Source: Bacteroidota bacterium (GTDB taxonomy: Bacteria; Bacteroidota; Ignavibacteria; Kapaibacteriales; UBA961). From it: a DNA stretch of 35,797 nt. Shown in pieces: positions 13,897 through 23,741 of the stretch. The translations under genes and the position numbers were made by a program. The stretch is taken from the NCBI GenBank assembly GCA_020852855.1, contig JADZAA010000029.1, forward strand, positions 1 through 35,797, in the 5' to 3' direction. Below the pieces are notes generated by a model. It was not told the DNA's origin and did no database searches. It worked only from the letters and a program-made list of their open reading frames with translations. Position 1 is the stretch's first letter; each line of letters starts with the position of its first letter.

Positions 13897-16800
13897 ATGC
13901 GCAGTTTTATATTTATTGCAGCTGTTGTTGTGTCATTCGCCAATGCAACGGCACAACAACTTTACACGAATGCGCCCGATTATCGGGCGTTTCCGACGAT
14001 TGAAGCAAAAATATACGTTTTCGATTCGCTTGGCAGACTAATTCGTCCACTTTCCGCGTCGGACTTTATTGTGCATGAGGATAATATCCAGCGTAATGCA
14101 ACTCTCGTATACTGCCCTCCCGCCACTCCCGAACCTATTTCGGCCGTTTTAATGCTCGACGTGTCGAGTTCTATGAACGAGCCGACCGGTGCTACTCGGC
14201 TTGATATGGCAAAATCGTCGGCCGTTGCATTTATAGAAGCCTTATCGGACGGCGTTAATGAATGTGCGATAGGCAGTTTCGATGATGTAAGTTATATCAA
14301 TCAAGACTTCACTTCCGATAAATCGGCTCTGCTTTCCGCAGTTGCCGATCTGAAACCTTTGCTCGGCACAAATTACGACGAGGCATTGCTGAATCCCCCA
14401 AGCGGCGCACTTGAAATTGCAAAAACAGGCAAGTACAAAAAAATCGTCGTTTTCTTGACCGACGGACTTGGAGAAGGAAACGAGCAAGCAATTGTCGCTC
14501 GTGCAAAATCTATAGGCGCAACGATTTACTGCATAACTGCAGGGCTGCCTATGCCGGATATTTTGCGAAATATATCCTCGAAAAGCGGCGGCGAATGCTT
14601 CGAAAATATTACCTCAAAAACAGAAGCGATTGCAATTTTTCGTGCGATTTTACAACAGTCTATTGGCGTTCAACCATGCATTTTGCGCTGGCAGAGCGAT
14701 TTTGGTTGCAATGATTCATTGAGAATTTGCGACATATCCGTTCCGGCACTCGCCTTATCCGCTCGTACTTATTACACACCACCGCCGAATTATGTTGCCC
14801 GACTAATTGCAAACCCTGACGAAATATCTTTTGGCGAAGTCGTGCCAAATACAATCATTACTAAGGAATTTACCCTTACGGCTCAAGGCAAAGCCATAAC
14901 CATACGCAATATTTCATCGTCATTTCCATCATTTTCATTGCAACCGCCGCCTTCTTTTCCATTTACGATTACAGCCGGCAACTCGCGCAAATTTACAGTT
15001 CAATTCGCTCCGGCAGATTCTTTTTTTCGTTCGGCTGATTTGAAAATAGAAACAGACCTTTGCCCCGCAGAAGTTTTTCTGACCGGCGGCTTCACAGGGA
15101 AATTTCCTATTCCGCCCGATATAAATCTGATACGTCCGAACGGCAGCGAAAAATTCATAGTCGGCAATATAGAACAGCTTTCATGGAAAGGCGTAACTCC
15201 ACAAGACAGCGTAAGGTTGGACTATTCTCTTGACAACGGGGAAACGTGGAATTTTATTGCCGATGCCGCCGGATTACGTCATAATTGGCGAATACCGAAC
15301 ACGCCGAGCGATTCTTGTATAGCCCGCGTTACTCATTCGGCAGGCAATATTAAATCGAATAAAGCCGTAAAAGTTTTAACGCTTGCAGCGCATACGAACA
15401 CGGTGCAATGCGCCTCTTTGGTGCCGGACGGCTCTATGCGGGCGGCAACCGCCTCGAGCGATGGTACTGCCATTATTTGGAACATACGTAACGGCACTCA
15501 GATTGCTGTTTGCACGGGGCATACGGGTACAATTCGCCATGTTGAATTTTCGGCAGACGGCACACGGCTAATCACCGGCGGCACCGACGGCACGGCACGA
15601 ATTTGGAATACAGCCGATGCAACGCAAACACAAATTTTGCTTGGTCATACAGCACCGGTTTGGGCCGCAACGCTTTCACCGGACGGACGATTCGCGCTTA
15701 CAGGTTGCGACGACGGCACAATACGCTTGTGGAACACGGCAATGGAATCCACAACTAAGATTCTCACCGGACACACTAATCGAGCCTATAGCGTAAAATT
15801 CAGCCCTAACGGAACTTCGGCAATATCCGCCGGAGGCGACAGATCTGTGCGAATATGGAATTTGACCAATGGCAACGAAATTCCGCCTGCTTTCAATTTG
15901 CACGAAAATTCTGTTCGCACTTGCTCCTTTTCACCGGACGGACGCAAAGCAGCCAGCGGTGGAAGTGATAATGTCGTTTATATTTGGGATACGTCTAATA
16001 GATTGCCGATTTACAATTTGACGGGACATACTGCGGCAGTTCTATCGCTTGCATGGAGTTCGGACGGAACTCGCTTGCTAACCGGCGGCGAAGACGGGCG
16101 CGTTATAGTTTGGGACGCTTTGACGGGAACACAATCTCTCACGCTTCCCCCCTACCCGGACGCAGTTACTTCTGTCGGTTGGAATAAAACAGGCGATACA
16201 ATTATAGTTGCCGGCGGAAACACAGCCGATATTTGGGCAATTCGTACAACATCTTCACAACAAGATGAATCGAACGCGACTTGGTCTATTGTACGACCGA
16301 CATTAAACGCAGGTAATGCAGATTTCGGAAATGCAGTAATAGGAGCAATCAAAGATTCTATTTTACACCAAGTGCTTATAAATCCGGGCAATTATACTGC
16401 CGAAATTACGGGAATGGCGATAATCGGCACCGACAAATCGGATTTTTCCGTTATTTCCGGCGGTACGCCATTTTCTCTCGAAGCCGGCAGAAGTCATTCG
16501 GCAGAAATTCGTTTCTGTCCGCAAGCAGCCGGTTTGCGCAATGCTTCACTAATGTTTTTCACATCTTACGGCGACACTTTGCAATGTCCGCTTTCCGGTA
16601 TAGGCGTTCAGCCTGCTATTGTTCTCGAAACTCCGCTAATTGATTTCGGCGTGGTTGAAATTGGTCAAACTAAGGACACCGCCGTTACTGTTATAGTTCG
16701 CAATCTTGGCGCAACGGCTGTTATACTTACTCCCACGAAGCAACTTGGCCCGGACACATCTCATTTTTCAATAGTTAATCCGTTGCCCTTTCTATTACAA

Positions 16801-17625
16801 CCCAACGGAATTCATCCGCTGATACTACGTTTCAAACCGACGGAAATAGGGCGCGTATCCGGACGATTCGGTCTTGAATACAAAGATATTGGTTCGCCTG
16901 CGCTTGTGCGTCTGTTCGGACAGGGCTTGGGCGGAATAGTTTCATTGCCGCAAGATTCGGCATTCGCCGGCGAGCGGCGCAGTTTCGCCCTTATGCTTTC
17001 CGGCATAAAGCCGGCTACCGTCCAAGGCGGTGCAGTTCCCGCAAGGTTTGCAGCTGAAATAGAGTATGACGGCTCTTTACTTTTTTGTGAAAAATCGGCA
17101 TATTCTCCCAAAAGATTTATGAAAAACGGGGCGTTGCGCGAACATTTGTTTATCAACGAATCATGGGACGGTACTTCACCGGAATTGGCAAAAATCCCAA
17201 TAATTGCAACACTTGGCAGCGCAGAGACAACTCCCCTTGCGATTACGTCTTTTGTATGGCTTTCGGCAAGCGGCGACACATTGCCGGTATATTCCGAAAA
17301 ACGCTCAGGTAAATTTAAATTGCTTGGTTTATGCGAAACAAATGACGGTAAAAGATTTTATCGTCCCGAAGGTATGACCGCCCTTTCGGCAGCATTTTTC
17401 AATGGGCAAAATGCCACAATTGACTTTACTGCCGGAGAAACAGGCACTTACAGTATTGAAATTTTCGATGCTATCGGCCGATTGGCAATACAAGAAACAT
17501 TTTTCATCGAAAATATTGGAGAGATACACAGAGAATTATCTTGTTCCATCAATACGGCGACAGTGAATTTTATCGTACTTCGTTCACCAACTACTTCACT
17601 TTTTGCGCCATTTTTTTTAAGATAA
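13897..17625 (+). CDS. Large secreted vWA / WD40 / ASH-domain protein with C-terminal sorting domain
   Basis: The 1242-residue protein starts with a signal peptide (MRSFIFIAAVVVSFANATAQ). A von Willebrand A domain at ~80-255 keeps the metal site (LDVSSSM at 86-92, FLTDG near 186). Next come a choice-of-anchor/ASH beta domain (~300-395), an Ig-like segment (~410-490) and a seven-bladed WD40 propeller (~496-780, with repeated GHT and DGT-RIWN motifs). Two more ASH-type domains follow (~805-1020). The C-terminal ~90 residues (GTYSIEIFDAIGRLAI) look like a type IX secretion signal domain. Expected location is the cell surface or outside; an adhesive or protein-binding role is inferred. The combination of vWA and a canonical WD40 propeller in one exported chain is uncommon. 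A T-run follows directly at the stop. Confidence 0.85.
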   Translation: MRSFIFIAAVVVSFANATAQQLYTNAPDYRAFPTIEAKIYVFDSLGRLIRPLSASDFIVHEDNIQRNATLVYCPPATPEPISAVLMLDVSSSMNEPTGATRLDMAKSSAVAFIEALSDGVNECAIGSFDDVSYINQDFTSDKSALLSAVADLKPLLGTNYDEALLNPPSGALEIAKTGKYKKIVVFLTDGLGEGNEQAIVARAKSIGATIYCITAGLPMPDILRNISSKSGGECFENITSKTEAIAIFRAILQQSIGVQPCILRWQSDFGCNDSLRICDISVPALALSARTYYTPPPNYVARLIANPDEISFGEVVPNTIITKEFTLTAQGKAITIRNISSSFPSFSLQPPPSFPFTITAGNSRKFTVQFAPADSFFRSADLKIETDLCPAEVFLTGGFTGKFPIPPDINLIRPNGSEKFIVGNIEQLSWKGVTPQDSVRLDYSLDNGETWNFIADAAGLRHNWRIPNTPSDSCIARVTHSAGNIKSNKAVKVLTLAAHTNTVQCASLVPDGSMRAATASSDGTAIIWNIRNGTQIAVCTGHTGTIRHVEFSADGTRLITGGTDGTARIWNTADATQTQILLGHTAPVWAATLSPDGRFALTGCDDGTIRLWNTAMESTTKILTGHTNRAYSVKFSPNGTSAISAGGDRSVRIWNLTNGNEIPPAFNLHENSVRTCSFSPDGRKAASGGSDNVVYIWDTSNRLPIYNLTGHTAAVLSLAWSSDGTRLLTGGEDGRVIVWDALTGTQSLTLPPYPDAVTSVGWNKTGDTIIVAGGNTADIWAIRTTSSQQDESNATWSIVRPTLNAGNADFGNAVIGAIKDSILHQVLINPGNYTAEITGMAIIGTDKSDFSVISGGTPFSLEAGRSHSAEIRFCPQAAGLRNASLMFFTSYGDTLQCPLSGIGVQPAIVLETPLIDFGVVEIGQTKDTAVTVIVRNLGATAVILTPTKQLGPDTSHFSIVNPLPFLLQPNGIHPLILRFKPTEIGRVSGRFGLEYKDIGSPALVRLFGQGLGGIVSLPQDSAFAGERRSFALMLSGIKPATVQGGAVPARFAAEIEYDGSLLFCEKSAYSPKRFMKNGALREHLFINESWDGTSPELAKIPIIATLGSAETTPLAITSFVWLSASGDTLPVYSEKRSGKFKLLGLCETNDGKRFYRPEGMTALSAAFFNGQNATIDFTAGETGTYSIEIFDAIGRLAIQETFFIENIGEIHRELSCSINTATVNFIVLRSPTTSLFAPFFLR

Positions 17626-17653
17626 TTTCGCATTAAAAACAGAAGCAAATAAG

Positions 17654-17661
17654 TATCTTTG
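17654..17661 (+). promoter_or_regulatory. Candidate -7 element upstream of the 43-codon ORF
   Basis: TATCTTTG matches TAnnTTTG and is followed by GC, as at other candidate promoters here. It lies 56 bases before the ATG of a short ORF. No TTG at -33 is seen, so support is partial. Confidence 0.35.
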
Positions 17662-17716
17662 CGAGTAATTATCCAAACTATTACACTTAACTGTTTAATT
17701 CAAGGTTCTCAATAAA

Positions 17717-17848
17717 ATGCCAATTCCGAAAATACTTGTCGACATAGCAGAACATTTACAGGAACAGAACATCCGGCTCTCCGAACAATTTATCGTTCTT
17801 TTTCACAAGCATCAAAATTTATCTTATCAACTTTCGGAGAGGCGATAA
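17717..17848 (+). CDS. 43-residue ORF, possible 5' remnant of a host gene
   Basis: Translation gives MPIPKILVDIAEHLQEQNIR followed by 23 more residues ending SERR. The amphipathic, protein-like beginning and the -7 element 56 bases upstream suggest a real start. Nothing is recognised. It ends just before the first gene of accessory block 2, so it may be the start of a host gene cut by insertion, or a genuine small protein. In the -1 relative frame a stop-free stretch continues to about 17902, so a frameshifted longer gene is another possibility. Confidence 0.35.
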   Translation: MPIPKILVDIAEHLQEQNIRLSEQFIVLFHKHQNLSYQLSERR

Positions 17849-17896
17849 AATTACGTTCGGAAATTTACTTCAACTTCAAAAAATATTTCCCGGAAT

Positions 17897-19045
17897 ATGT
17901 ATAACGTAGAACAATATGGTCAGGTTTTTACTCCTCAATTTATTGTAGCAGAAATGTTACAATTAAGAAGAAATTATGGAAGTATTTTAGAGCCATCAAG
18001 CGGAGATGATGCATTTGTAAAAAACATCCCTAATTGTATTGGAATTGAATTAGATACAAAACATTGCGGAGCACATTCACTTAATATTGATTTCTTTGAT
18101 TATTCAATTACCAATAAATTTGATACGATTATCGGCAATCCTCCTTATGTTCGATATCAAGATATAATTCCGGAAACAAAGAAAAAACTGAAATTAAATT
18201 TATTCGATGAACGGACAAATTTATATATGTTTTTCATTGAAAAATGCATCAGTCATTTAAATCATAAAGGTGAATTGATTTTTATTACTCCAAGAGATTT
18301 TCTTAAAGCAACTTCAAGCATTAAACTGAACGAATTTATTTATAAAAGCGGTACTGTTACAGACTTTATTGATTTAGGTGATAAAAAAATTTTCAACGGG
18401 TTTAACCCTAACTGTATTATTTGGCGTTTTGAAAAAGATAATTTTTCGCGTAAAACAAATATTACAAAAGAATTTGTTTTTTGCAATGGACAGCTGTTAT
18501 TCACAGATAATTATTATCCGTTAGTTTTTAAAGACGTTTTCTCTGTAAAAGTTGGTGCGGTAAGTGGAAACGATAAAATTTTTTCAAATGAAAAATACGC
18601 TGATACTGAATTTGTTTGTTCTTCAACTTGCAAAACAGGAAAAACAAAAAAAATGATTTTTAATGTAAGAAACAACTATTTAGAAAAGCACAAAGAAATT
18701 TTATTGGCGAGAAGAATTAGAAATTTCGACGAAACAAATTGGTGGCAATGGGGGCGATTACATTATATTACCGATAAAAAAAGAATTTACGTAAATTCAA
18801 AAACACGAAATAAATATCCGTTTTTTACTCATGAATGTAAAAATTACGATGGCTCTGTTTTGGCGATATTTCCAAATAATCCGGAAGCAGATGAAAAGAA
18901 ATTATGCGAAAAACTTAATTCGGTGAATTGGTATGAATTAGGTTTTGTTTGTGATGGACGATATTTATTTTCACAGAAGAGTTTAGAAAACTCGTTATTA
19001 CCCGATTATTTCAGAGAAGATGTTTACAAAACGCAATTATTTTGA
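17897..19045 (+). CDS. Adenine-specific DNA methyltransferase (NPPY type), no nuclease partner
   Basis: The 382-residue product is a type II N6-adenine DNA methyltransferase of the gamma arrangement. SAM-binding motif I comes first (ILEPSSGDDAFV, residues ~30-41), followed by the catalytic motif NPPYVRY (~81-87) and then a C-terminal target-recognition region resembling the Eco57I/TaqI group. Motif I carries D-D where many have D-G, but the catalytic tetrad is intact. No restriction endonuclease accompanies it: the next element is repeat copy C. It is therefore an orphan methyltransferase that could protect against a resident nuclease or act epigenetically. AT-rich, first gene of accessory block 2. 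Confidence 0.85.
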   Translation: MYNVEQYGQVFTPQFIVAEMLQLRRNYGSILEPSSGDDAFVKNIPNCIGIELDTKHCGAHSLNIDFFDYSITNKFDTIIGNPPYVRYQDIIPETKKKLKLNLFDERTNLYMFFIEKCISHLNHKGELIFITPRDFLKATSSIKLNEFIYKSGTVTDFIDLGDKKIFNGFNPNCIIWRFEKDNFSRKTNITKEFVFCNGQLLFTDNYYPLVFKDVFSVKVGAVSGNDKIFSNEKYADTEFVCSSTCKTGKTKKMIFNVRNNYLEKHKEILLARRIRNFDETNWWQWGRLHYITDKKRIYVNSKTRNKYPFFTHECKNYDGSVLAIFPNNPEADEKKLCEKLNSVNWYELGFVCDGRYLFSQKSLENSLLPDYFREDVYKTQLF

Positions 19046-19060
19046 CTAAGAAAAATTTGT

Positions 19061-19195
19061 GTATTTCCAAAAGCGGCTGGAAACGGCTCCGATTGAATGT
19101 TTTTTGTTAAATTTATGGTTTCGTTTCCGATTGAAAGCCGGTGCCGAACCTCCCCGCCAACGCCGACACATAAACCGTTAGTGGCGGTAACGGTA
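19061..19195. repeat. Cassette-spacer repeat, copy C (attC-like)
   Basis: Shared family features are gcgg...aaacggct(c/t)cgattgaa at 19073-19097 and tttccgattgaaag...ccccgcc at 19123-19158. The outer gcgg/ccgc ends can pair, and the element closes with aaaccgttagtggcgg, an R'-like GTTAG boundary. It lies between the orphan methyltransferase gene and the pentapeptide-repeat gene. Confidence 0.6.
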
Positions 19196-19222
19196 CACTG
19201 CGCAAAATGACAGAACAAGCAA

Positions 19223-19786
19223 ATGCAGGAAAATTTTACACAAGACATAACCTTTGACAAAAATAATTTGCCGACAAAAGGCGAATACGAAAGCTGCATT
19301 TTCAATAGTTACAACTTTGCCGACAGCGACCTTTCTGAATTTAAGTTTATAGACTGCACATTCAACGGTTGCAATTTCAGTTTGGCAAAAATAAACAACA
19401 CAGCGTTTCGGAACGTGAAATTCAAAGGTTGCAAAATGCTGGGACTTAGGTTTGACTCTTGTAACGAGTTTGGACTTTCTTTTTCGTTTGACGGTTGCCA
19501 ACTCAATAATTCTTCGTTTTACAAAACAAAAATTAAAAAAACGATTTTTAGAAATTCACAATTACAAGAAACTTTCTTTGCAGAAGCCGACTTGACAAGT
19601 GCTGTGTTTGACAACTGTAATTTAGAACAAGCCATATTTGACCACTCAACACTTGAAAAAGCCGACTTTCGGACTTCTTACAATTATTCCATTGACCCCG
19701 AAACTAACCGTATCAAGAAAGCGAAATTTTCATTATCGGGCATTTCAGGACTCTTAGACAAATACGACATTGACATAGAAAAATGA
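19223..19786 (+). CDS. Pentapeptide-repeat protein, McbG/Qnr-like
   Basis: The 187-residue protein is built from pentapeptide repeats, with F or L at every fifth position (CIFNSYNFADSDLSEFKF, CTFNGCNFSLAK, TSAVFDNCNLEQAIFDHSTL). It folds as a right-handed beta-helix that can mimic duplex DNA. Length and the C-terminal segment IDPETNRIKKAKF followed by a short amphipathic tail recall McbG and the Qnr group, which shield DNA gyrase from microcin B17 or quinolones. This is resemblance from memory. The gene overlaps the next by 4 bases (ATGA), and that gene encodes a GyrI-like domain, which strengthens a gyrase link. Part of accessory block 2, with copy C upstream and copy D downstream of the pair. 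Confidence 0.8.
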   Translation: MQENFTQDITFDKNNLPTKGEYESCIFNSYNFADSDLSEFKFIDCTFNGCNFSLAKINNTAFRNVKFKGCKMLGLRFDSCNEFGLSFSFDGCQLNNSSFYKTKIKKTIFRNSQLQETFFAEADLTSAVFDNCNLEQAIFDHSTLEKADFRTSYNYSIDPETNRIKKAKFSLSGISGLLDKYDIDIEK

Positions 19787-20262
19787 TGCCAAGAATTGAA
19801 ACAATAAACGAAAAGAAATTAGTCGGAAAGCGACTGACAATGAGTTTTGCAAACTACAAAACAGGCGAATTATGGAAAAGTTTTATGCCAAGACGAAATG
19901 AAATCACCAACAACTTGACAGGCGATTTAATTTCAATAGTTGTTTACAAACCAAAATATTTTGCAGACTTCAAACCGACAAACGAATTTGAAAAGTGGGC
20001 AACGGTTGAAGTTGCGGACTTTGACAATGTGCCGAATGAAATGGACACTTTTGTTTTGCCAAGCGGACTTTATGCAGTTTTTGACTACAAAGGTTCAAGT
20101 GCCGACAACTCGATTTTTAAACATATTTTAGGAATGTGGTTACCAAGTTCGGACTACGTTTTGGACGACAGACCACATTTTGAAGTGTTGGGTAACAAAT
20201 ACAAAAATAATGACCCGACATCTGAAGAGGAAATTTGGATACCAATAAAAGAAAGAAAATAG
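19783..20262 (+). CDS. GyrI-like effector-binding domain protein
   Basis: The 159-residue product is a stand-alone GyrI-like/AraC effector-binding domain. Recognisable features are the central LPSGLYAVFDYKGS strand, the WLPSSDYVLDDRPHFE segment and the closing EEEIWIPIKER, in family order. There is no DNA-binding domain attached. Family members bind small hydrophobic molecules, and E. coli GyrI/SbmC binds gyrase and lowers sensitivity to microcin B17 and quinolones. It overlaps the pentapeptide-repeat gene by 4 bases, so both should be made together. A second ATG three bases later could equally be used. Function as a gyrase modulator is inferred from the pairing. Confidence 0.8.
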   Translation: MMPRIETINEKKLVGKRLTMSFANYKTGELWKSFMPRRNEITNNLTGDLISIVVYKPKYFADFKPTNEFEKWATVEVADFDNVPNEMDTFVLPSGLYAVFDYKGSSADNSIFKHILGMWLPSSDYVLDDRPHFEVLGNKYKNNDPTSEEEIWIPIKERK

Positions 20263-20283
20263 AAACGCCGGACACTAAAGCTC

Positions 20284-20385
20284 GTTTAACAAAAGTGGCG
20301 GGAAACATCTTCGATTGAAAGTTTTTTTGCTGAATTTGAAGTGTCGTCTTCGGTTGAAAGTCAGTGCTGAAATAACGCCTTCGAC
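20284..20385. repeat. Cassette-spacer repeat, copy D (attC-like)
   Basis: It begins GTTTAACAAAAGTGGCGGG, which fits the R'' consensus RYYYAAC exactly. It then has cttcgattgaaag, a ttgctgaatttgaagt middle and cttcggttgaaagtcagtgctgaaataacgcc, all shared with copies C and F. The aagtggcg end can pair imperfectly with cgcctt at 20376-20381. Confidence 0.6.
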
Positions 20386-20427
20386 AAGCTAAGTAAACGA
20401 TATAACACATTAAAATAAAGGAACAAT

Positions 20428-21060
20428 ATGTTACCGGGACCTATTTACATTTACGAATGTCCTAATTGTGGCAATCTTTTGCAAAAATTTAGTTTTATAA
20501 GTGGCAACACATTTGGAGCAAAAATGTATTCCGATGGTAAATGTATTGCACCGATGCTGCCTAAGCGTCTAATTCTTACAAAATGTAAAAAATGCAATAA
20601 TATATTTTGGTTAAATAAATTAAAAGAAATCGGAACTGTTGAATTTGATGATTATAAAAATCCAATGCGTAAAAATGCTGACCTTATAGAATCCTTGAAA
20701 ATAGATGGTTGTTTCAAAGCAATTGATACTGGAATTGCCGAAAACGAGCAAGAGGAATTTTTTATTCGTCAACTGATTTGGCGTTTATATAATGATAGAG
20801 TCAGGAAAGGTGAGAATCAGTTTATTGGTGTAGATGACGAAATCATGTGGAGAGAAAATTGTTACAAATTAATCTCACTTTTAGACTCAGCAGATTTAGA
20901 CCAAAGAATTATGATTGCTGAATTAAAAAGGAATTCAGGTGACTTTGATGGTTGTCTTGAAATTCTTAAGACGATTGATGATAATAGACTTAATTGGATA
21001 AAAGAAGAACTTATTCATGAATGTAAAATAAAAAACAAAAATGTAATAAAATTGGATTAA
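20428..21060 (+). CDS. Zinc-ribbon protein of unknown function
   Basis: The 210-residue protein begins with two CxxC pairs, ECPNCGN at ~10-16 and KCKKCNN at ~53-59, spaced as a zinc ribbon. A charged, mostly helical C-terminal region with TPR-like character (LKRNSGDFDGCLEILKTIDD) follows. No enzyme family is recognised. It has a fair ribosome binding site (AAAGGA) and is the only gene between repeat copies D and E. AT-rich codon use agrees with its accessory neighbours. It may be a protein- or nucleic-acid-binding cargo gene; this is not shown by sequence. Confidence 0.7.
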   Translation: MLPGPIYIYECPNCGNLLQKFSFISGNTFGAKMYSDGKCIAPMLPKRLILTKCKKCNNIFWLNKLKEIGTVEFDDYKNPMRKNADLIESLKIDGCFKAIDTGIAENEQEEFFIRQLIWRLYNDRVRKGENQFIGVDDEIMWRENCYKLISLLDSADLDQRIMIAELKRNSGDFDGCLEILKTIDDNRLNWIKEELIHECKIKNKNVIKLD

Positions 21061-21205
21061 CGATTTTCAACAACTCATTACCCAAAAACAACAAGCAAAC
21101 AGCTTCAATCAAGCATTCTACATAAGTAAAAAGTTGAGTTTTTGTTGGTAAAGACCAGCCCTGCGTCGAGCCGTCACAAGCAAGACGTTAGCGATAATGC
21201 TTAAA
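21053..21205. repeat. Cassette spacer, divergent copy E
   Basis: This 187-base gap between genes holds a spacer that begins at GATTAACGA, overlapping the stop codon, and ends near GACGTTAGCGATAA. The boundary motifs resemble R''/R' ends of attC sites. The interior (caaaaacaac at ~21084-21093, gtttttgttgg at ~21137-21147) can pair imperfectly. It does not share the cttcgattgaa core of the other copies, so assignment rests on position and ends only. Confidence 0.4.
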
Positions 21206-21247
21206 ATACGGACAACCAAAGTTCATAACAATTCCAGCATTTGAACT

Positions 21248-22876
21248 ATGCCGACAAACATATTCGGTGAAATAGAGATATACGAAGTTACAATAGAACA
21301 AGCGGCAAAAACCGTCAATGTATCAACCGCAACAATTAGGAATTGGATTAAGACAGGTTACTTGATTCAATCGGGCAAGGGATTAATTTCTCAAGAGTCT
21401 TTAGAGAAATTTATTAGTGAAGTAGCCGGGAAAGAGAAATTGAATGCAAGGGCTAATAAGTTATTAAAAGACGGACACGACCATAAAAAGGCTTCTGACA
21501 AAGTTGATGTACTGATAAAAAAATACAAAGGGGAAAAAATAGGTATTGAATACGAAAATTCACTCTCGGATTCTCATAGAAACAAAGAGGGCGTTTATTA
21601 CACACCTTCTTGGATTGCGAAAGATTTATTCAAAAACATAAAAATTACATCTGATTTAAAATTCTTAGATCCTTGTTGCGGTTCTGGAAATTTTCTTATT
21701 GAGGCAATTCAGCTGGGAGTTGCACCTGAAAATGTGTATGGATTTGACATAGATGAAAATGCTGTTTTAATTACCCGGCAGAGAATAAAAGACGAATTCG
21801 GCTATGATACAGAAAATGTAAAAGTTGGCGACTTTCTGCAAGAAGCAGCCAAATTAAGTAGAGAAGGCAAATCTTTCGACCTGATTTTCACTAATCCGCC
21901 TTGGGGCAAGAAAATTGAAAAATCTGCCAAAGAAATGTATTCTTCATTATATGGATGCGGAAATAGTTTAGATACGACATCTTTATTTTTTGGAGCCAGT
22001 CTATCTATTCTTAAGCCTGATGGATTCTTAGGTTTTTTGATTCAAGAAGCATTTTTCAACATTACTACTTTTGAAGACATCCGTAGGAAGGTAATGTCAA
22101 AACGAATATTGCGATTTGTAGATTACGGTAAAGCTTTCAAAGGTTTAGTAACCAAAGCACAGGCTATTGTGATAAAGAATCAAACATCAAATTCACTTGA
22201 CCTCATAGAATGTTGTTTAGAAGATAAAGTATTCAATAGGACCTTAGAATCATTTACCGAGAATCCCAAAAACATATTCAACTTTTGGACTAATGAAACA
22301 GAAGCACAGGTTATCAAGCAGCTTTATTCAATGCCACACGTTACGCTTAAAGGTAGAGCGAATTGGGCATTAGGAATTGTAACCGGGAATAACGATAGAT
22401 TTTGCATTGACGAACCCAAAGAGGGTTATGTTCCAATCTACAAAGGCTCTGATATTACAAAATCCGAATTGAAAGAACCAAGCACATTCATACTTAATGA
22501 TTTTTCCAATTTTCAACAAGTTGCGCCTCTAAAAATGTATCAAGCAGACGAAAAATTGATTTATAAATTTATTTCTTCTGATCTTTGTTTCTTTTATGAC
22601 AACCAACAACGATATGTTTTAAATAGTGCGAATATTCTTGTTCCAATAAATCTTGGAATAACCGCCGAGCAATTAACAATGCTGTTAAATAGTGAAATAA
22701 TTAATTGGCTTTTCAAAAAACTATTTTCAACTCATAAAGTACTTAGGGGCGACCTTGAATTACTTCCTATTCACACGGACTACTTTTCAAGTAACCGAGA
22801 ATTTACTGAAGCAGATTACTTAAACTATTTACAAATAATCAAAACAAGCGATGGAACTTACAGAGCTAAAGACTAA
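21248..22876 (+). CDS. N6-adenine DNA methyltransferase with N-terminal helix-turn-helix
   Basis: The 542-residue protein starts with a MerR/excisionase-like helix-turn-helix (TIEQAAKTVNVSTATIRNWI, ~16-35). A methyltransferase core of gamma order follows, with SAM motif I LDPCCGSGNFL (~140-150) and catalytic NPPWGKK (~217-223). The C-terminal half resembles a TaqI-type target-recognition domain. It would methylate adenine at the site cut by the nuclease encoded just downstream. The added helix-turn-helix could let it control its own transcription, as some methylases do; this is inferred. The 5' end of the nuclease frame, starting at 22851, overlaps its last 26 bases. AT-rich; part of accessory block 2. 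Confidence 0.87.
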   Translation: MPTNIFGEIEIYEVTIEQAAKTVNVSTATIRNWIKTGYLIQSGKGLISQESLEKFISEVAGKEKLNARANKLLKDGHDHKKASDKVDVLIKKYKGEKIGIEYENSLSDSHRNKEGVYYTPSWIAKDLFKNIKITSDLKFLDPCCGSGNFLIEAIQLGVAPENVYGFDIDENAVLITRQRIKDEFGYDTENVKVGDFLQEAAKLSREGKSFDLIFTNPPWGKKIEKSAKEMYSSLYGCGNSLDTTSLFFGASLSILKPDGFLGFLIQEAFFNITTFEDIRRKVMSKRILRFVDYGKAFKGLVTKAQAIVIKNQTSNSLDLIECCLEDKVFNRTLESFTENPKNIFNFWTNETEAQVIKQLYSMPHVTLKGRANWALGIVTGNNDRFCIDEPKEGYVPIYKGSDITKSELKEPSTFILNDFSNFQQVAPLKMYQADEKLIYKFISSDLCFFYDNQQRYVLNSANILVPINLGITAEQLTMLLNSEIINWLFKKLFSTHKVLRGDLELLPIHTDYFSSNREFTEADYLNYLQIIKTSDGTYRAKD

Positions 22877-23570
22877 AATTATTGAATCATTTTCCGGTTC
22901 GGCAAGCGACCTTGAATAAGATCTTCAAATGATTGATGATGACCGATCCATTTTCCCATTTAATGAATATGAACATTTGATTTGTAATCTAATAGAAAGA
23001 GGCGGGTTAACCTATGAACAATACATAGATATTAGAACCGAGTACATAAGTGCAAATCCAAATCTCTGGGTCTTTGAAATATCGGCTCTGAGAGGATTCG
23101 GAGAAAAATTTGCACAAACTTATATTCAAGGAAAATGTTCCAAACTTAAAAGCCCTAACAAAAAACTTGACCCAAATTATTCAGGTGACTATGATTTATG
23201 GTTAGACGGAATAAGAATTGAAGTTAAGGCATCAAGAGCGGTTGATAGCGAGAGTGAAGAACCATTGTATATGAAAGCACTTTCAAGAAATACGAATAAA
23301 AATTTCTTGATGAATTTCCAACAATTAAAGCCACAATGTTGTGACGTATTTATTTGGGTTGCTGTTTACAGAGACCAAATAGTCCTTTGGGTTATGAGCA
23401 GTAATGAGGTTTTGGAGAATCCTCATGATTCAAAAGGGCGGCATAGAGGAAATAAAGGTAACGAAGGACAACTTCACATCCGAAAGGATAATGTAGAACA
23501 GTTGAAACAATACGATTTTATTGGAGACAATTTGGAACAAGCGATAAGAGATGCAGCAGAGCGAAACTAA
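22851..23570 (+). pseudogene. Type II restriction endonuclease frame interrupted by an in-frame TAA
   Basis: One reading frame runs from ATG 22851 to 23570. It encodes 22 residues (MELTELKTKIIESFSGSASD then LE), a TAA at 22917-22919, then DLQ and a second ATG at 22929 that opens 213 residues. The downstream part has a PD-(D/E)xK-like core (SGDYDLWLDGIRIEVKASRA, D...E-V-K around residues 87-106 of the short form), so it is a nuclease, family and site unknown. The 22-residue lead has coding character and overlaps the methylase 3' end as in coupled restriction-modification pairs. Either a nonsense mutation truncated the enzyme, or the short leader allows re-initiation at 22929 ten bases later. 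The short form may still be active. Confidence 0.7.
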
Positions 23571-23577
23571 AGCACTG

Positions 23578-23712
23578 CCTACAACAGCGGTTTGAACGTA
23601 ACGGCGGGTAAACGGCTTCAATTGAACGTTTTCGGTAAATTGGAAGTTCGTTCATTGATTGAAGTCCAATGCTAAAAATCCCCCGCATTTGCCAATATCT
23701 GAAAACCTTAGC
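23578..23712. repeat. Cassette-spacer repeat, copy F (attC-like)
   Basis: It begins CTACAACAGCGG after the nuclease gene. The family core follows: ggcgggtaaacggcttcaattgaa (in two runs across 23602-23626), then gttcgttcattgattgaag and gctaaaaatcccccgc at 23645-23686. It closes near ACCTTAGCCGG. gcggg and cccgc ends can pair. It marks the right end of accessory block 2; the host FAH-family gene starts 30 bases on. Confidence 0.65.
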
Positions 23713-23741
23713 CGGATTTTTTCAAAGAAAAATTATATTTT

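Follow-up and report, generated by a model that had tools for sequence, protein, structure and literature searches.

A Type II restriction-modification pair with an intact adenine methylase and an early in-frame stop codon in its nuclease gene

The restriction-modification pair and its surroundings

The window, that is, the whole 35,797-nt stretch of a Bacteroidota genome that was analysed (contig JADZAA010000029.1), carries an adenine-specific methylase gene followed by the frame of a restriction nuclease (Table 1). The methylase matches the PADLOC model MTase_II PDLC03356 with an E value of 5e-179, as well as the Pfam models N6_Mtase, Eco57I and TaqI_C; its frame is open and holds the SAM-binding and NPPW motifs expected of a Type II restriction-modification methylase. 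The nuclease is assigned by PADLOC REase_II PDLC03414 to the Type II restriction nucleases, while the Pfam and NCBIfam models gave no match to it. This nuclease of the matching family, with 385.8 bits over profile positions 33-243 for its 213-aa frame, adjoins the methylase in the expected operon order and with the overlap common to the family. Both proteins match the PDLC03356 and PDLC03414 pair over nearly the full length, and their order and overlap are those of the intact relatives. Unlike in an intact pair, the nuclease frame of the window is interrupted by TAA at residue 23, and several of its conserved positions have changed.

The overlap of the two genes measures 26 nt in most of the 33 loci (window included) and 20-35 nt in the remaining four. 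A similar overlap occurs in the PvuII system, between the nuclease start and a regulator gene before it, and translation, when tested directly there, proved not to depend on that upstream gene (PMC2997769). The overlap alone is therefore no proof of translational coupling.

Table 1. Features of the locus, in window coordinates
Feature	Position	Strand	Details
Apparent mobile unit with the restriction-modification pair	21180..23722	+	Similarity to relatives sets in about 70 nt ahead of the methylase; roughly 140-nt palindrome-like element after the nuclease
Adenine-specific DNA methyltransferase, intact, 542 aa	21248..22876	+	N6_Mtase/Eco57I, TaqI_C; PADLOC MTase_II PDLC03356; motifs DPCCGSGNF and TNPPWGKK; no stops against homologues
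Overlap of methylase end and nuclease start, 26 nt	22851..22876	+	Methylase stop 22874-22876; equal overlap in 29/33 loci
Lead forming the true N-terminus of the nuclease, residues 1-22: MELTELKTKIIESFSGSASDLE	22851..22916	+	Same residues in L006 and L037; conserved throughout the aligned homologues
In-frame TAA at nuclease residue 23	22917..22919	+	Glu codon in L006, L007, L036 and L037
GAT CTT CAA, three codons separating the TAA from ATG 22929	22920..22928	+	Codon 24 is GAT (Asp); V/I/L/A in homologues
Rest of the nuclease frame, 213 aa from internal Met (residue 27)	22929..23570	+	Keeps D115, E124 and K126 of the predicted PD-(D/E)XK site; PADLOC REase_II 385.8 bits; invariant columns; fold matches to NhoI and I-Ssp6803I
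P80L	23088..23090	+	Column Pro in 30/31 others; the sole other Leu is in the broken L023
Y193D and Q197R within the conserved NPxYSxGQHRGN motif	23427..23441	+	Y193 column Y or F in 28/29; Q197 Gln in 29/29 others

The AlphaFold2 model of the protein read through the TAA is confident, with a mean pLDDT of 86.7 and a pTM of 0.80. It places helices at residues 3-13 and 18-30, and the predicted strands 116-118 and 121-129 carry the D...ExK of a PD-(D/E)XK fold. D115, E124, V125 and K126 are invariant across the 32 aligned sequences, as such a site would be. D115, E124 and K126 are the predicted catalytic residues. The closest solved folds are the restriction enzyme NhoI (PDB 8rpx, E about 2e-4) and the homing nuclease I-Ssp6803I (PDB 2ost, E about 1e-3), although the overall likeness to both is low (TMq 0.32-0.39, 11-15% identity). 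At the sequence level, no relative of the nuclease was found in the PDB.

The pair lies in a low-GC block at 17600-23740 (28-40%, against roughly 41-50% in the flanks), in which all genes are on the plus strand: an adenine methylase at 17897-19045 (PDLC03282), a pentapeptide protein, a GyrI/Cass2-like protein, a zinc-ribbon protein and the restriction-modification pair. Another ('first') restriction nuclease was not found among the neighbouring open reading frames scanned, and none was recognised near the methylase at 17897-19045. Adjoining the block, 13897-17625 encodes a 1242-aa protein with WD40 repeats, a VWA-like region and choice-of-anchor D domains. Similarity to L037 and L036 sets in some 50-70 nt ahead of the methylase start (21180-21248), near ACGTT(A/G), as if the pair had moved as a single cassette. 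The low-GC genes of the window are separated in several places by a palindrome-like element of roughly 100-150 nt (19050-19175, 20270-20372 and 23578-23722), which also stands beside the pair in other genomes (L006:4645-4805, L037:915-1036, L033:4516-4640). Its core reads ...CTTCGATTGAA.GTTTTTTG.TAAATT...GTTCTTCGATTGAAG..AGTGCTAAAAATCCC... and it resembles an attC-like cassette boundary, but its ends do not fit GTTRRRY. No integron integrase above its cut-off was found in this genome.

The stop codon and the N-terminal lead among homologues

The earlier note on this DNA had read the nuclease from ATG 22851 through the TAA to ATG 22929 without a shift, and rereading the frame confirmed it. The two ATG codons, the TAA and the final TAA at 23568-23570 share one frame, and the 213-aa remnant contains neither a second stop nor a frameshift. 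With its stop at residue 23, the gene is not full-length. The locus is present once in the genome.

Relatives were sought by a scan of one genome per species, which yielded 34 (given by L numbers here). Every alignable relative (32 of 32) starts at the position matching ATG 22851, with MELxELK or a similar sequence, and none starts at the position of ATG 22929, so the pattern that, by the earlier note, would have refuted its reading did not appear. The start codons, window included, are ATG in 29 cases, GTG in three and TTG in one. M1, L3, L6, I10 and G16 of the lead are near-invariant, and the distant members L004, L044 and L045 (about 39% identity) also bear a related lead. The earlier note had further taken the 22 residues before the stop for real protein overlapping the methylase end. 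This was borne out by the profile score, which rises to 411.5 bits over positions 8-243 of PDLC03414 when the frame is read through the TAA, by the recurring overlap, and by L006 and L037, which share all 22 residues of the lead and differ from it at the DNA level by synonymous changes only. Judged from these alignments, the likeness of the lead is beyond chance and marks the real start of the nuclease; the lead belongs to the enzyme itself, as its conserved N-terminus, and is not a leader peptide.

All alignable homologues have a sense codon at the position of the TAA. DLE-stop-DLQM of the window corresponds to DLE-E-VLQM in the nearest relatives, and most of the other homologues have D, E, R, A, K or H in place of the stop. 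Met27, encoded by ATG 22929, is shared with the nearest relatives, whereas most of the remaining homologues have I, L, V or F there; it is therefore an ordinary internal residue.

Could the stop be read through, yielding a little full-length enzyme? The frame is open on either side of the TAA, but the residue directly after it is changed by V24D, where all other homologues have V, I, L or A, and TAA followed by G is not known to be a leaky context. We consider readthrough extremely unlikely. A regulatory stop common to the family was also considered and rejected: the only other stop nearby, at residue 26 of L023, comes with a second at residue 158 in what is plainly a broken gene.

Close to the host, relatives of the locus are sparse. 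A methylase of this kind was not found in 60 near relatives of the host, nuclease homologues are few in its phylum and class, and a search of plasmid and viral-contig collections returned no relative. Among 398 genomes from the phylum to which G696, the source of L010, belongs, matches occurred in two, both open.

Changes on the branch leading to the window

We counted, on each branch, the nucleotide changes unique to one tip among the window, L037, L036 and L006, with the stop of the window taken as nonsynonymous. Over nuclease codons 1-113, the nonsynonymous to synonymous counts are 6:8 for the window and 0:26 for L006, the sole close relative known whole (Fisher p = 0.0008; the comparison with L006 was picked after seeing the data). 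Over codons 27-113, from the internal ATG onward, they are 4:5 and 0:24 (p = 0.003, with L006 likewise picked after seeing the data). The methylase shows no such contrast, with 34:42 for the window and 70:104 for L006 (p = 0.58). When L037, L036 and L006 are pooled against the window, the nuclease contrast is borderline (p = 0.07 and 0.05). The ratio is likewise raised in L036 (8:6), whose nuclease frame departs from the family sequence after residue 146, near the contig end.

A maximum-likelihood two-ratio branch test on the nuclease gave a branch omega of 0.079 against 0.038 with 2dlnL of 2.0, which is not significant; the test is under-powered because the two nearest relatives are truncated, one at residue 113 and one at 146. 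Within codons 27-239, the likelihood hardly changes up to omega of about 1 and barely separates 0.1 from 1, so the remnant is neither demonstrably neutral nor demonstrably constrained. Scaled by branch length, the changes in conserved columns show no excess either (3 seen, 1.7 expected, P = 0.23). In the lead, the window branch carries three synonymous changes and no nonsynonymous one. The lead was therefore probably selected as protein for most of this branch, and the stop is probably recent.

Four amino-acid-level differences cluster within codons 23-32. This clustering, together with an assembly in 138 contigs, would fit an error of sequencing or assembly at the TAA, or a consensus of mixed strains there, with a gene that is really intact. 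The change is a substitution, however, and not a homopolymer indel; the other unusual changes are far off, at residues 80, 193 and 197; and the genome is 99.22% complete with a contamination value of 0.1. An error at this site is quite unlikely.

Loss of the nuclease and comparison with known cases

The explanation that we favour, at a probability of about three in four, is that the nuclease was recently inactivated by a point mutation from a Glu codon to TAA at codon 23 and changed further at conserved sites, while the adenine methylase stayed intact. Several lines point that way, none of them decisive alone: the loss of the N-terminus, the raised nonsynonymous share against L006, and the changes V24D, P80L, Y193D and Q197R. 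Counting against it are the open remnant with its predicted catalytic residues, the branch test and conserved-column count that lack significance, and the well-placed ATG 22929. Ribosomes starting at 22851 would halt after 22 residues. A product starting at 22929 would miss residues 1-26, and with them not only the start Met but also the near-invariant L3, L6, I10 and G16, all of the first predicted helix and most of the second; it would probably be poorly made or inactive. The methylase would then act as an orphan, and the cell would tolerate the loss of the nuclease because a methylase by itself should do no harm.

The main rival is that ribosomes terminate at TAA 22919 and re-initiate at ATG 22929, so that a little nuclease is still produced, as an active 213-aa enzyme kept at a level below that of the methylase. 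The ATG is well placed for this, in frame and 9 nt after the stop, and the remnant is fully open, with D115, E124 and K126 kept and no other stop or frameshift. The shortened product would, however, lack the conserved residues and the two predicted helices of the N-terminus; Met27 is unconserved, no homologue starts there and the arrangement is not conserved among the relatives; P80L, Y193D and Q197R fall inside the 213-aa product; and the nonsynonymous share is raised also 3' of ATG 22929. The earlier note had left the choice between a truncated nuclease beside a harmless methylase and a nuclease held low by re-initiation after a short leader. The former is supported; for the latter nothing positive emerged, given a lead that is the conserved N-terminus, the starts of the homologues, the changed conserved sites and the raised nonsynonymous share. 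Continued low-level synthesis of an active enzyme is thus unlikely. That the stop and ATG 22929 form a re-initiation switch, in which the conserved N-terminal segment has been made into a control device giving a shortened active nuclease at a very low level, we regard as very unlikely. If the shortened protein were active, it would be a simple natural example of expression control through a nonsense mutation.

A recent nuclease loss that spared the methylase is better supported than re-initiation, and on the former explanation the locus is an ordinary step toward an orphan methylase, along a familiar route and with no new control device. Loss of the nuclease is a described route to orphan methylases (PMC10073500), and in Mycoplasma agalactiae a nuclease subunit is broken by a premature stop with methylation retained (PMC9465063). 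Like orphan methyltransferases derived from restriction-modification systems, the window has an intact methylase and a broken partner nuclease; unlike solitary methyltransferases (PMC10073500), it still has the nuclease remnant, nearly whole, adjoining the methylase, which places it at an early stage of orphan formation. The locus offers a clear snapshot of a pair becoming an orphan methylase, with a whole methylase, a nuclease bearing one early stop and a handful of other changes, and intact relatives for comparison. It also carries a warning: where a 213-aa nuclease is annotated from 22929, it should not be taken for a functional restriction system.

Among the other full loci, an in-frame nuclease stop occurs only in L023, from a Treponema MAG (PDOP01000037.1). 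Like the window, it combines an open methylase with an early TAA in the nuclease, at residue 26; unlike the window, it carries a further TAA at residue 158, which makes its nuclease more clearly dead. Its state arose independently of that of the window, which indicates that nuclease loss beside a kept methylase is recurrent in this family. Both genes are damaged in L033.

In L031 (2315-3945), the methylase is apparently split by a frameshift around residue 310-322 beside an open nuclease, an arrangement that, if real and active, should harm the host and therefore may be an assembly error. In L033 (1987-4513), the methylase has four stops, and a different 249-aa open reading frame separates the methylase remnant from the C-terminal part of the nuclease.
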